Source of the DNA: a virus
Length of the DNA stretch: 37,498 nt
Virus record (IMG/VR): IMGVR_UViG_3300038429_000797
Location: 1 to 37,498 of that record
Direction: 5' to 3' (one strand)
Position 1 is the stretch's first letter; each line of letters starts with the position of its first letter. Below are positions 4,801 to 36,663 of this stretch, in pieces. The position numbers and the translations under genes are program-made. The notes beneath the pieces were generated by a model. The model saw only the letters and a list, made by a program, of their open reading frames with translations, was not told the DNA's origin and did no database searches.

Positions 4801-5802
4801 GCCTCCGGAGACCAGCGTGATTCCAGCGAGCGTGCCGCCGGTGATGACGGTTCCGATGCCGCCGGGCTGCACGGGCGTGATCTGCGCGGTGGCGACGCAA
4901 TCCTGCGTATCGCCCAGGCCGAAATCCGCATCCGTAATCGCGTCGGCAACGATCAGCGCCCAGTTGGCGCTGAAGCTGCGGCCGCCGGTGCGCGGATCGT
5001 AGATATCGTTTTTGCCGCGGACAGTGAAGCGGATCTCGGGGAAATTCGGAAACTGCGTCGAGTCGTAGCCGATCTGCAAAAAGACATAAGTGCAACCGCC
5101 GCCATAGGGAGACTGATTTACATTCGCCGCCCAATTAGGGTCGGTGGCCGCGAGCTTCTGCACGATATCGCCGGGCAGCTGGTCGCCGTAGCGCGCCTCG
5201 CAATAAACCTTGCCGGCGAACTGATAGTGATTTCCACCGGGGCCGATGCCGTAGCCGAGGCCCATGCCGTAGTAGGGATGCTGGCCGTAAGGGGTGGTAT
5301 TCAGCACCGCACCGGGGGTGTTGGCCTGCACGTCGTTGGCTGCGATGCCGCCGAAGTTGATGCCGTTGCGCGTGGTATTGGCTGGGTTCGCCGTATTGGG
5401 GAAGGCGGGGCTGGTGTTTGAGGTCTGCTGCCAGAAGACCTGGCGGCCGTCAAGATATAAATTCACGATGGAATCGATCTGGTGACCGGCCAGAGCGATG
5501 ACCAGGTTGTAAAGCGGAAGCCCTGTGTTGCCGAAGCCGGTGGTGGATTGGTAGACAATGGTACCCCCGATCCGCTGCTCGCCATAGACCACCTGGCGCA
5601 GGCCCGCGGCCTGGCGCACGGTGATGCCCAGGCCGCGCTGGTTCGCCAGAGCCTCGCTGATGGCCGCGGCTTCCATGCTGATGCCGCCGGCAGCCATGGC
5701 TTGAATAGCGGCGGCCAGCAAAGGCGAAGCTGCGCCTCCAGTGAAGTATTCGAGCGCAATTGCGCCGACTAGCATGGCTGCGCCGGTGATGGCTTTGCTC
5801 AT
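1891..5802 (-). CDS. J-like tail tip / host specificity protein with Gly-rich repeats
   Basis: A 1303-residue tail tip protein, expected at the end of the tail where it contacts the cell. The N-terminus (1-60) has a hydrophobic, Ala/Gly-rich segment followed by a region resembling the N-terminal part of lambda J-type hub proteins (VVYGEQRIGGTIVYQST). The middle (about 430-680) is non-repetitive. From about 680 to 1190 there are some 12 repeats of roughly 40 residues built on G-Y-T-S-A-P-T-V-T followed by SGGGGSGASA; two more occur near 314-400. Repeats of this type form elongated beta structures in phage tip and fibre proteins (family knowledge). Position after the NlpC-like gene fits the order hub - peptidase - J. 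The start at 5802 follows a Shine-Dalgarno hairpin. Confidence 0.85.
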   Translation of the reverse strand: MSKAITGAAMLVGAIALEYFTGGAASPLLAAAIQAMAAGGISMEAAAISEALANQRGLGITVRQAAGLRQVVYGEQRIGGTIVYQSTTGFGNTGLPLYNLVIALAGHQIDSIVNLYLDGRQVFWQQTSNTSPAFPNTANPANTTRNGINFGGIAANDVQANTPGAVLNTTPYGQHPYYGMGLGYGIGPGGNHYQFAGKVYCEARYGDQLPGDIVQKLAATDPNWAANVNQSPYGGGCTYVFLQIGYDSTQFPNFPEIRFTVRGKNDIYDPRTGGRSFSANWALIVADAITDADFGLGDTQDCVATAQITPVQPGGIGTVITGGTLAGITLVSGGGGYTTPPTVTIAPPLGPGYCYPAPAGTLTMATATAILGSGPTAGEVVGFNITNPGAGYTTQPLITVTPSPNAAVNQAQLIAAANVCDEDVLTSAGFEQNYQLNLHYDTGTSPGAALAMMMPAAAGRISRIGGQWFIWPAYWQGPSFVFDQGALVGTPTWMPNRSFKELFNRVNGTYIAPNYPYNNITRGEGGASDLYDSNGWWYGQTEDTWPLAWQPTSYPQYAHDALHGFGYDEFLAQDGGILLPKDLSFRSVISIVQAQRVAKINLMRNRQQGSGSFPMSLAAWQMQPTDVMQFTFPVLGWTNKVLEISGDLRFQIEEQESEDEGGERALAVSLVVPVNETDPSVYEWNGVQASVVGQDGWGYTSAPTVSFNPYLDQPYATLYNNGVLQVILTNPMTLYTTTPTVTFSGGGGSGASATAVLGATQPGGGQLITGFTINAAGSGYSTAPTVTLSGGGVFTTNATATAQLYGMAIGGLSITNGGHGYTTAPAVTINGTGQGATAYAVLTAGVVTEIVLLNTGYGYTGTPTVSIAAPPVGGTQATATASLAGSSVLGIALTSGGAGSGGGLGYTSPPTVTFSAPQLPGGYSATATASISGGVVTGFTLTNPGYGYTSAPTITLSGGGGSGASAQAIGALFVTSATITNGGLGYTSAPTLNFTGGGGSGAGGYTAVSGGAVDQITITTEDYPGYQSVPSISFSGGGGSGAAATAVCEYLLSGVGVAGGAGYTTSPTVTLSAPGLSGGVQATATATVAGGQVTGFTIVTQGSGYLTPPTVSLSGGGGTGASGTAYLASSTVAGFTITNPGAGWLQNPNVIISGGGGYGASATTSIGGGQILTLTPGGALMDELTLYEELSPYDVPVSGAPPEQAGTVAVGSAAGSGATGNVVGSTLIGQITILTGATGLAAGTLCTVTFQSALPHAPTVLITASGISSGVVSGTATTTVATFVVSAALLPSTLYQIGYELLL

Positions 5803-5820: not shown

Positions 5821-5856
5821 AGTTGTCAGGGGTCAGGGGCCAGGGGTCAGTTAAAA
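5821..5856. repeat. 7-bp-period repeat tract
   Basis: Degenerate tandem units of 7 bp (GTTGTCA, GGGGTCA, GGGGCCA, GGGGTCA) fill the gap between the NlpC-like gene and the tip gene, directly next to the hairpin. Confidence 0.75.
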
Positions 5857-6304: not shown

Positions 6305-6342
6305 GTTTTTGACCCCTGATCCCTGACCTCTGATCCCTGGAT

Positions 6343-20848: not shown

Positions 20849-20982
20849 AAACAGTGAACAGTGGACAGTGAACAGTGGTCAGTAAGAGTCCGAAAGGCAA
20901 CCGCAGATCCTTCGTCCGCCGCGGCGGACTCAGGATGACAAGCGCGAAAAACGGACCCCTGATCCCTGAAACCTGACCACTG
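20849..20982. repeat. 7-bp tracts flanking a CCGCAGATCCTTCG element
   Basis: 20849-20884 is made of units such as CAGTGAA, CAGTGGA, CAGTGGT. 20890-20943 is the full second element with TCCGCCGCGGCGGA palindrome and CAGGATGACAAGCG. 20955-20982 has ACCCCTGATCCCTGAAACCTGA in the opposite sense. The whole 154-bp gap between two genes is repeat-derived. Confidence 0.75.
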
Positions 20983-33461: not shown

Positions 33462-34346
33462 CTAATTAAAACCCAGCGAACCCAAAACAACCTGCGCGTC
33501 TCTTTCCAACCCTGAGCGCTTCTTCACCATTCTCTTCGCCAGCGACACCCGGCTCTGCGTAATCCCAAACTTCTCAGCTATTTGCACGCCTTTCAACCCC
33601 GTCACCCGCGCCACAATCGTGATCGCAATCGCCCGGCGCCGCGCCTCCCAAACCCGTCCCGGCCCAATATGGCAAAGCTCATCCACGTCCACCCTAAAAT
33701 AATTCGCCAGCGCGCCCATCACCGCGCCGATCTCCGGTCTTTTGCCTGTCATCCTGAGCGTGCGCGAAGGATCTGCGGTTGCTTTTCGGGCTTTTCCTGA
33801 TCCCTGAGCCCTGATCCCTGACCCCTGCTCTTGAAGCATCTCCGCACCCATACACGCATTCGGCGCCATCCGCACCGTCTCACCGCCGAACACTCTCTCC
33901 ACCGGCTGATTCGCGCGAGGCCGGCTGTCCGCGTAAGCGCTGGAACTTTCCCCGCGCAGTTCCTGCTCCCGTCTCGCCACAGCCTTCAGCCCGCGCACCG
34001 TCTGGATGCTCAGCCCGTACTTTTCCGCGACGTCGCAAACCTTCATGCACTCAAGATCGGCCAGCGCCGCTTTTTTGGTTCCCGCCTCCACCGGCGCAAA
34101 CTGTTTCCCGGAATTGAAAAACTTCCGATCCTCAACCTTCAACGCCGGCAGCTCGCACGGATCGGAGTCTTCTATCATCCGCTCCGGCGTCGGCATCTGC
34201 GCGGCGGTCTCATAGCAGCAGGCCTCCCCATCCGCGCAGCGCATGCACCACGGCAATCCATCCATCAGGATTTGAGCTTGGCAAAAATGCCCAGCGTTCC
34301 TGCACTTCCAGCAGCTCACCCCAATCAGCTTCCCCAGCACGCTCAT
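33462..34346 (-). CDS. Zinc-finger / HTH / DnaA-domain-IV-like DNA-binding protein
   Basis: A 294-residue modular protein. Residues 12-44 hold a Cys cluster (CWKC, Cys22, CMRC, CC) likely to bind zinc. Residues 98-125 are a helix-turn-helix (CMKVCDVAEKYGLSIQTVRGLKAVA). Residues 205-276 (EIGAVMGALANYFRVDVDELC, ARRRAIAITIVARVTGLKGVQIAEKFGITQSRVSLAKRMV) follow the pattern of DnaA domain IV, which binds DnaA boxes. The linker (172-203) is encoded by inserted repeat DNA: GSGIRAQGSG from the 7-bp tract and ATADPSRTLRMTG from the CCGCAGATCC element. The gene lies downstream of the replication protein with ATGA-type coupling, so a role in replication or its control is likely. Confidence 0.7.
   Translation of the reverse strand: MSVLGKLIGVSCWKCRNAGHFCQAQILMDGLPWCMRCADGEACCYETAAQMPTPERMIEDSDPCELPALKVEDRKFFNSGKQFAPVEAGTKKAALADLECMKVCDVAEKYGLSIQTVRGLKAVARREQELRGESSSAYADSRPRANQPVERVFGGETVRMAPNACMGAEMLQEQGSGIRAQGSGKARKATADPSRTLRMTGKRPEIGAVMGALANYFRVDVDELCHIGPGRVWEARRRAIAITIVARVTGLKGVQIAEKFGITQSRVSLAKRMVKKRSGLERDAQVVLGSLGFN
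33745..33832. repeat. CCGCAGATCC element and 7-bp tract inside a coding sequence
   Basis: GTCATCCTGAGCGTGCGCGAAGG...CTGCGGTTGC (33750-33782) then GGGCTTTTCCTGATCC and CTGAGCCCTGATCCCTGACC (to 33830). Same order as at gene junctions, in inverse orientation, read in frame as the linker of the 33462-34346 protein. Confidence 0.8.
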
Positions 34347-34618
34347 GCGATCTTCCTCGTCTTCGCCGCCAGCGCCATCATCCGCTCAACGCTCCTTCCA
34401 TGTTCCAGGCATGGCAACGGAACCTTCTTCGGCGGCTTCTTCTGACCCCTGACCCGTGACCCCTGATCCCTATCCTTCGCCCAAACCACCGTATTCCCCA
34501 GCGCCCCGGGCTCGCTCACCTGCCCCTGAAAAGCCTTCATCTGCCCCTCAAAATCCAGCGGCTCGAAAGGCTCAACCGCGCCTCGCCGCGCCGTCGCAAT
34601 CACCACGTATCGCATCAT
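34343..34618 (-). CDS. Small protein of unknown function in the replication block
   Basis: A 91-residue protein (MMRYVVIATARRGAVEPFEPLDFEGQ). The first 48 residues look like a compact domain. Residues 49-61 (DRDQGSRVRGQKK) are encoded by a 7-bp repeat tract, and the rest (LEHGRSVERMMALAAKTRKIA) is a helical tail. Its stop overlaps the ATG of the next gene (ATGA), and its ATG overlaps the stop of the replication gene, so the three are coupled. No function known. Confidence 0.6.
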   Translation of the reverse strand: MMRYVVIATARRGAVEPFEPLDFEGQMKAFQGQVSEPGALGNTVVWAKDRDQGSRVRGQKKPPKKVPLPCLEHGRSVERMMALAAKTRKIA

Positions 34619-35652
34619 CGGCTCCCCACTCTCGCTTTCATTTGCAGCCGTTCCTGCTTGAAAACCTCGTTATCCCACGGCCAGCTCTCCCGGCTTAGCC
34701 AATAGCCTTCCGAGAAAAACCTGCGCGCGCCCCACATGAACCGCAGCCGCTGCCCCTGCGCCGTGAAGTCTTCCCAGGCCTCAACCATCGCCACCATCGC
34801 CAGGGCCAACGCCATCACCAAAGGCTGCTCGCTCTCGTCCGCCTCCTGGCGCAGAACATCGCGGATCACCGCGCGCATCCTCCTTGCCGTAAAGCCGCAC
34901 CCGCGCATCACCTTGTCAACGGTAGCTTCGTAAGCTGCCTCGTCGGTCAGGATCTGTTGAGTGCCGCTCTCCCCCGCTTGCGGGGGGTAGGGGGGTGTAG
35001 TTAGTTTTGCTTTATTGAGTTTTGTAGTTATAGATGCTGTACTGCTGGAGCGACAGTTCTGTGCGTCCAGAGCGACAGATCTGTCGCTCTGAGCGACAGA
35101 TGCGGCAAATAATCCACAATCTAAACTGTCGCTCTGAGCGACAGATGCGGCGCCCTTCTGACCACTGATCGCCGTGAACTGACAACTGCTCTTCCTGGCC
35201 AGCTTCAGCCGCAGCTCACACACCTGGCGCTTCAACTCAGCCACGCGCTCCGCCGGCAACCTGAAACTTCCCATCCCCGGGTCATACAAGCCGCCCTCGC
35301 GCGTGACCAGATCCTTCACATCCGCCAGCGCGTAGCGGCCCTTGGCTTTTTCACCGCGCACCGCCCGCAGCAGGCCAACGTGTTCCAGCACCTGCAGGCA
35401 GCGAGAAACGGTGTCCACAGACTTCCCGCACCATTCAGCCATCTCCCGCAGGCTCACGCGCGTATCGTCGCTGCGCACCTTCGGCGACACGATCCAGGCC
35501 CCGTGCGCGTTGCGGGCAATGCGGCAGTACACCCAGATCGCGTCCGCGCCCACGATGGGCTGGTAACAATCCGCGACCTCGTTGTCTACCCAAAAATGGC
35601 ACGGCTTGCGCACATCGCGCAGCCCCGTCACTTCATCCGTCGCAGTGCCCAC
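34615..35652 (-). CDS. Winged-helix phage replication protein with an origin-like repeat region in the gene
   Basis: A 345-residue protein. Residues 20-60 (FWVDNEVADCYQPIVGADAIWVYCRIARNAHGA) and a winged helix about 66-110 (SLREMAEWCGKSVDTVSRCLQVLEHVGLL) resemble phage replication initiators with an N-terminal DNA-binding domain. The C-terminal domain (235-345, EATVDKVMRGCGFTARRMRAVIRDVL) is helical and probably binds a partner such as helicase or loader. The linker 156-231 is encoded by repeats: SCQFTAISGQK from a 7-bp tract, two AASVAQSD units from the iteron-like repeats, and TPPYPPQAGES from a GC palindrome. The GTG at 35652 has GGGAG seven bases upstream. Confidence 0.7.
   Translation of the reverse strand: MGTATDEVTGLRDVRKPCHFWVDNEVADCYQPIVGADAIWVYCRIARNAHGAWIVSPKVRSDDTRVSLREMAEWCGKSVDTVSRCLQVLEHVGLLRAVRGEKAKGRYALADVKDLVTREGGLYDPGMGSFRLPAERVAELKRQVCELRLKLARKSSCQFTAISGQKGAASVAQSDSLDCGLFAASVAQSDRSVALDAQNCRSSSTASITTKLNKAKLTTPPYPPQAGESGTQQILTDEAAYEATVDKVMRGCGFTARRMRAVIRDVLRQEADESEQPLVMALALAMVAMVEAWEDFTAQGQRLRFMWGARRFFSEGYWLSRESWPWDNEVFKQERLQMKARVGSR
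34999..35150. other. Candidate replication origin: iteron-like repeats plus AT-rich stretch
   Basis: Six exact copies of GAGCGACAG occur in 97 bp: four forward (35048, 35070, 35091, 35136) and two inverted (35081, 35126). 35069-35090 is a perfect 22-bp palindrome; 35081-35105 and 35126-35150 are exact 25-bp direct repeats. TAATCCACA at 35110-35118 differs from the DnaA box TTATCCACA by one base. An AT-rich stretch lies at 34999-35038. All of it is within the replication gene, as lambda ori lies within gene O. Confidence 0.6.
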
Positions 35653-35702: not shown

Positions 35703-35790
35703 GCAGTTGTCAGTAGTCAGTTATCAGTAATCAGCAAGCAGGGACCGGGTTTCTAATTGACCCCTGATCCCTGACCACTGATCACTGTTC
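35703..35790. repeat. 7-bp-period tracts between replication gene and upstream gene
   Basis: CAGTTGTCAGTAGTCAGTTA with further units to 35733, and after a short spacer TTGACCCCTGATCCCTGACC and ACTGATCACTG (35757-35788) in the other sense. The second tract runs into the last codons of the 35782 gene. Confidence 0.75.
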
Positions 35791-36189: not shown

Positions 36190-36663
36190 TCATCTGCCCC
36201 GCAAATAGCGGCTGCAATCCAGCACGCCGTTCTGACTAACCCCTGATCCCTGAACCCTGACCCCTGCCACGTTCTCCCGCAGCTTCTTTTTCTTGCGATA
36301 CTTCCGCGCCTGGCGCACCATCTCCGGATCGTCGAACTCCCAGCACTCCACATGATCGGCAATCAGCATTTCCTTCAGCTCCGCCAGGGGCTCCGGAGTT
36401 CGATCCGCTGCCTTGTGGACCTCAAACCAGTCATCGCATCCACCGAGGCACTCGAAGGCATGCATCTCGGGATGCCACACGATCCCCCCGTCAGCTGGCC
36501 GCTGCCGCTTCGTCGAAACTCTGACCCCTGATCCCTGACCCCTGACAACTGTTGTCACCACCAACAATCTGAACCGCACACAACAGCGCCGCGCCTCCGC
36601 CTCGCTCGGAAACGGGCAAGCCGTAGCAATCCGCCGATCACATTCAGTCGCGCAGGCAATCAT
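36190..36663 (-). CDS. Protein of unknown function carrying two repeat-encoded insertions
   Basis: A 157-residue frame with GAGGAG before the ATG at 36663. The N-terminus is Cys-rich (MIACATECDRRIATACPFPSE). Residues 38-50 (VVRGQGSGVRVS) and about 131-142 (AGVRVQGSGVSQ) are translations of 7-bp tracts. The central part (PADGGIVWHPEMHAFECLGGCDDWFEVHKAADRT...WEFDDPEMVRQARKYRKKKK) looks like a real domain with a Cys pair. The true protein may once have been shorter, and the C-terminus after the second tract may be secondary. Confidence 0.5.
   Translation of the reverse strand: MIACATECDRRIATACPFPSEAEARRCCVRFRLLVVTTVVRGQGSGVRVSTKRQRPADGGIVWHPEMHAFECLGGCDDWFEVHKAADRTPEPLAELKEMLIADHVECWEFDDPEMVRQARKYRKKKKLRENVAGVRVQGSGVSQNGVLDCSRYLRGR

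Follow-up and report, generated by a model that had tools for sequence, protein, structure and literature searches.

Intragenic replication origins of the lambda type are textbook knowledge. In lambda O, four annotated 18-bp iterons lie in the middle of the gene at a pitch of 20, 24, and 23 bp, and the AT maximum starts 2 bp after the array. Two articles describe the same layout for ori in gene O of lambda and for Stx phages, namely four tandem imperfect inverted repeats of 18–19 bp in mid-gene with a pitch of ∼20–24 bp and an AT-rich tract directly past the last iteron (PMC5043065, PMC7466680). Here we have analyzed the IMG/VR record IMGVR_UViG_3300038429_000797 (positions 1–37,498; this whole stretch of 37,498 nucleotides is called the window), in which a gene on the minus strand (34615–35652, GTG start, 345 aa) encodes an O-like replication initiator and carries a comparable array in its linker-coding part. 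Very probably this array is where a phage replicon of the lambda type has its replication origin, within the gene for its own initiator, and on its anatomy we classify it as a candidate lambda-type intragenic origin. The part of this reading that is taken from the sequence comprises the repeats, their spacing, the AT-rich stretch, conservation at the DNA level, and co-inheritance with the N-terminal domain of the protein.

The exact half-site GAGCGACAG occurs six times at 35048–35144 and nowhere else in the window, whereas shuffled sequences contained 0.52 copies on average and four at most (none of 100 shuffles reached six). When one mismatch was allowed the window contained 12 copies against 13.8 expected, so that the signal resides in the exact cluster. 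On the coding strand the half-sites make up four imperfect inverted repeats of 19 bp each (iterons), located at gene offsets 508, 553, 574, and 596, all of them on the minus strand. Iterons 1 (35126–35144) and 2 (35081–35099) are both CTGTCGCTCAGAGCGACAG, with two exact half-sites in the arrangement CTGTCGCTC-A-GAGCGACAG, and a 26-bp spacer (35100–35125) separates them; iterons 3 (35060–35078) and 4 (35038–35056) have one exact and one degenerate arm each. The most AT-rich 40 bp of the gene (34996–35035 in the same orientation; 75% AT against 38% for the gene overall, and A/C-rich on the coding strand) begin 2 bp past iteron 4, exactly as in lambda O. The initial annotation had recognized the six motifs and the adjacent AT-rich stretch, both of which we recovered, together with a 22-bp palindrome and 25-bp direct repeats; these are also present, the direct repeats being identical, although their full lengths are 24 bp (35068–35091, containing the 22 bp) and 26 bp (35081–35106 and 35126–35151), respectively. 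C-tracts on the coding strand beyond the AT-rich stretch (window ∼34970–34995) are seen in the relatives as well, and a CCCCCGCAAGCGGGGG-like inverted repeat near the same place is found in the window and in its relative L002.

The lambda-like placement of a putative origin within the initiator gene that had been proposed is supported by this layout. Window and lambda agree in the order of the elements and in unit size, and the spacing is also alike (45, 21, and 22 bp in the window) except for the first step of 45 bp, but the letters of the iteron differ (CTGTCGCTC in the window, ATCCCTC in lambda). Iteron plasmids of the RepA type likewise have phased initiator-binding repeats adjoining an AT-rich stretch, whereas in the window these are inverted repeats inside a gene. 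In the mechanism that we propose, the winged-helix N-terminal domain would bind as dimers to the four inverted repeats in its own linker DNA, with the bound iterons about two helical turns apart; the resulting nucleoprotein complex would strain and open the AT-rich stretch beside iteron 4, the proposed unwinding element, and the C-terminal domain, or a partner, would bring the replicative helicase to start replication.

The repeated DNA might in principle be just a by-product of a repeated linker peptide, SVAQSD, kept by selection on the protein. The peptide does recur, and VAQSD is invariant in nine aligned proteins of the family of the window initiator (family 1). However, when synonymous codons were permuted within the gene, which preserves both the protein and its codon usage, the number of half-sites averaged 0.26 with a maximum of two against the six observed (reached in 0/2000 permutations). 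Moreover, all seven degenerate codons that fall wholly within half-sites and encode an invariant residue are invariant among the nine aligned relatives, whereas this is true of 16 of 95 outside the half-sites and of 12 of 86 in the N-terminal domain (p 1.3e-5 for inside vs. outside). Furthermore, the word in iteron 4 is read in a different frame from that in iterons 1–3, and in one gene of a second family (family 2, see below) it occurs in all three frames. Frozen codons and differing frames both indicate that selection acts on the DNA and not on the peptide, which makes this explanation highly improbable.

Twelve viral contigs encode a protein related to the window initiator over nearly its whole length, and all 12 have three to six exact half-sites in the linker. 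A search with a profile of the N-terminal domain, built with the relative L019 from the palindrome scan described below included, extended this to 13 of 14 relatives that keep the array, and the exact half-sites are confined to one cluster in all 14 sequences of these phages. The loss of the motif in close relatives that still replicate had been put forward as a finding that would speak against an origin, but close relatives have not lost it; the single relative without it, L052 (38% identity, around 5001–5375), consists of the winged-helix domain alone, with no linker, C-terminal part, or repeats, and does not fit the simple picture. L019 has kept the array at 41% identity, with a pitch of 24, 21, and 21, and compared with the window its step between iterons 1 and 2 (and hence the spacer) lacks 21 bp. 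As 21 bp correspond to two turns of DNA and to seven codons, such a change would preserve both the helical phase and the reading frame. Among the relatives the C-terminal domain (34618–34947, minus strand) is exchangeable, its identity ranging from 28 to 83% as compared with 75–91% for the N-terminal domain. In fact, L002, whose initiator protein is also carried by L003, shares 91% identity with the window in the N-terminal domain and 85% in the linker but only 28% in the C-terminal domain. Because L002 retains both the domain and the sites while its C-terminal domain differs, the two have been inherited together, and by sequence comparison the putative DNA-binding domain and its sites travel as one module.

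A scan for the exact palindrome that makes no use of the protein retrieved 22 stretches from 2.9 million viral contigs: the 12 known relatives, L019, and nine contigs of family 2, whose palindrome sits in the linker of a different winged-helix protein, which PHROG also classes as a replication initiator (both members scanned). This result bears on the possibility that an interspersed host or phage repeat landed in the gene by chance, since all 22 contigs have the palindrome in the linker of an initiator. Among 84,980 bacterial and archaeal genomes the same palindrome was found only at five lone sites in unrelated genes, none of them a prophage initiator gene, which speaks against a repeat widespread in host genomes, the other finding that had been named as a reason to abandon the origin; the motif is no such repeat. 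What favors a chance insertion is that the window does have other repeats, of period 7, one of them near the array (35177–35188); we nevertheless regard it as scarcely credible. The interspersed period-7 repeat CCCTGACCCCTGA (1807–1819, 5826–5845, 6314–6333, 20957–20969, 33802–33828, 34447–34466, 35762–35781, 36241–36267, and 36519–36545) has 19 matches in the window with up to one mismatch (0.01 expected), and its sister word AACTGACAACTG has 14 (0.14 expected); some predicted genes include copies, which are translated as part of the peptide.

The gene product matches PHROG 18020 (E 5e-5) and PHROG 678 (E 2e-4), both annotated as 'replication initiation O-like', and its N-terminal domain (residues 1–155; 35188–35652, minus strand), the proposed iteron binder, is predicted by AlphaFold2 to form helix-turn-helix (HTH) helices at 68–75 and 79–92 followed by strands at 95–98 and 106–109 (mean pLDDT 73.6). 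These results agree with the claim that the repeats lie in the linker of a winged-helix replication gene, and they describe, with weak scores, an O-like initiator with an N-terminal DNA-binding domain. The nearest structures in Foldseek were generic winged-helix proteins, mostly transcription regulators; as none matched at E ≤ 0.001 we do not claim a structural kinship to lambda O, and a sequence search of the PDB with the alignment gave matches at chance level only. The resemblance to regulators, and the fact that inverted repeats are typical of operators, would suit an autoregulatory operator through which the winged-helix protein controls its own operon while replication starts elsewhere. 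However, the array is in mid-gene and not at a promoter in every relative, both families are replication initiators by PHROG, and the AT maximum follows the array in every gene compared, the most AT-rich 40-mer starting no more than 4 bp before or after the end of the array in 10/10 family-1 genes, 3/3 family-2 genes, and lambda O. We therefore consider an operator improbable. An element acting in the RNA, with hairpins of the mRNA serving as terminator, pause, or translational control, appears slightly less probable still: iterons 1 and 2 could form 9-bp stems, but an Rfam search gave no match, and iterons 3 and 4 have lost a pairing arm, which a protein-bound array would tolerate better than a hairpin.

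Several observations weigh against an origin of the lambda type at this locus. The window protein matches the O-like PHROGs weakly, one arm is degenerate in each of iterons 3 and 4, and neither a helicase nor a loader like lambda P, which the lambda system has, was recognized among the window proteins scanned, although the record may be a fragment. The GC skew tracks the direction of the genes; it says nothing of its own about an origin and was discarded as evidence.

The core of the iteron is found beyond these two families. Searching the viral contigs for TGTCGC-N5-GCGACA occurring twice with 1–12 bases between them yielded 30 stretches, while a reversed pattern of the same composition yielded none. 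All 30 lie within a gene, downstream of the portion that encodes an HTH domain; nine were already known from the palindrome scan and 21 were further ones. Profile libraries gave clear replication-initiation matches for seven of nine representatives of these 21, a marginal one for L071, and for L064 only HTH models and models of unknown function with no replication-family match; the remaining 12 genes look, by eye, like one or other of the nine representatives. The families in question, HTH_36 and 'replication initiation protein' (PHROG 270, 1032, and 391), resemble the window in combining a winged helix with linker iterons of this core and, in most cases, an AT maximum after the array, but they have marginal sequence similarity to the window domain and other C-terminal parts; the domains that precede the iterons in different core groups can be aligned over short stretches only. 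In this shared-core class the AT maximum lay close to where the script placed the end of the array (at most about 15 bp away) in 10 of 12 genes; the exceptions were L066 and L055, the array of L055 having been ended too early by the script. Annotated phage genes of broadly this type, 14 of which were compared, are called, for example, 'DNA replication protein O' or adjoin genes for 'replication protein P' or a helicase, and some of them have linker repeats of their own, such as CCTGTGCC, GGTGACA, or ACCCCCGC. With the script used for these genes no word of at least four copies was found in five of the 14 (L075, L081, L083, L086, and L087), and in L075, L076, L082, L086, and L087 the AT maximum is away from any array, which again departs from the simple picture. 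In the open-licence literature of PubMed Central we found no paper on the shared core and none that surveys the iterons of initiator linkers, although such papers may exist.

The letters of the core also appear to follow the residues of the recognition helix in a related initiator family of 80 loci (L169–L248) with 39 distinct N-terminal domains, of which the 30 with two or more core copies in the linker were counted. A threonine one residue after the central V/I of the helix goes with GCAACA in 9/9 domains, and an alanine at the same position with GCGACA or GAGACA in 21/21; within the alanine group, an H or N at the position four residues ahead of the valine is accompanied by GCGACA (8/8) and G or S by GAGACA (13/13). 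In the nine domains left out, no core reached two copies; one of them, L238, contradicts the rule (T with a single GAGACA), and another, L204, has F at this position. The Fisher value for the covariation is 7e-8 with kinship ignored, and the tree requires two changes for the T/GCAACA group and three for each of the two others, so the independent switches are few and the covariation is suggestive. The window domain itself breaks the second rule, as it has S four residues before the valine and yet GCGACA, and for this reason we do not claim a universal code. It could be, with about even chances, that O-like phage initiators are generally self-labelled, that is, that they carry their own site in the linker, with the core recurring in several winged-helix groups of marginal similarity and its letters covarying with the helix, so that a recognition code would be readable from sequence alone.

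The initial annotation had also pointed to a DnaA box with one mismatch and to a DnaA-domain-IV-like protein encoded downstream. The box, TAATCCACA (35110–35118, plus strand; one mismatch from TTATCCACA), is indeed there, but it is present only in the window, L002, and L003, that is, in two of 10 distinct family-1 genes (window and L002), and was thus rejected as a general core element of the origin; as the window has 10 such boxes with up to one mismatch, this one is unremarkable alone. The conserved boxes that would mark a DnaA-dependent origin were therefore not found. The protein (33462–34346, minus strand, 294 aa) is real, but its DnaA-domain-IV-like C-terminal part gives a weak signal in the window, with 14.8 bits to PF08299 (E 1e-3; curated cut-off 31.5) and E 0.01 to the DnaA structure 3pvp, and a strong one only in L002 and L003 (59.2 bits, over the cut-off). 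The relative in L003 also matches TIGR00362 DnaA (2e-13) and has an HHTT segment, absent from the window protein, at the place of the DnaA signature. In the L002 record (38,471 bases) both ends match the 294-aa protein, as if a circular genome had been cut inside the gene. PF08299 was found in three of 14 records (window, L002, and L003), the same three that have TGTGGATTA in the spacer among the 11 sequences compared. Counted by distinct origins, two have both box and PF08299 and eight have neither. With the two being closely related and a number of the records fragmentary, the association of the box with this protein is no more than suggestive. The 294-aa product may be an accessory or regulatory protein, and it is rather doubtful that a phage-made DnaA-domain-IV-like protein would act as a second layer through the box in the spacer that separates the first two iterons.

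With this analysis a putative lambda-type origin is placed in a group of uncultured phages whose initiator has no tblastn match in 50,697 phage records or in the plasmid collection (the family-2 protein was equally without a match in the phage records). It suggests that origins in such phages could be called from the iterons and the AT maximum in the linker of the initiator gene. Furthermore, one gene encodes both the site and its putative reader, so that a large set of such genes would provide matched pairs of DNA-binding domains and targets with which to test how winged-helix proteins choose their DNA.
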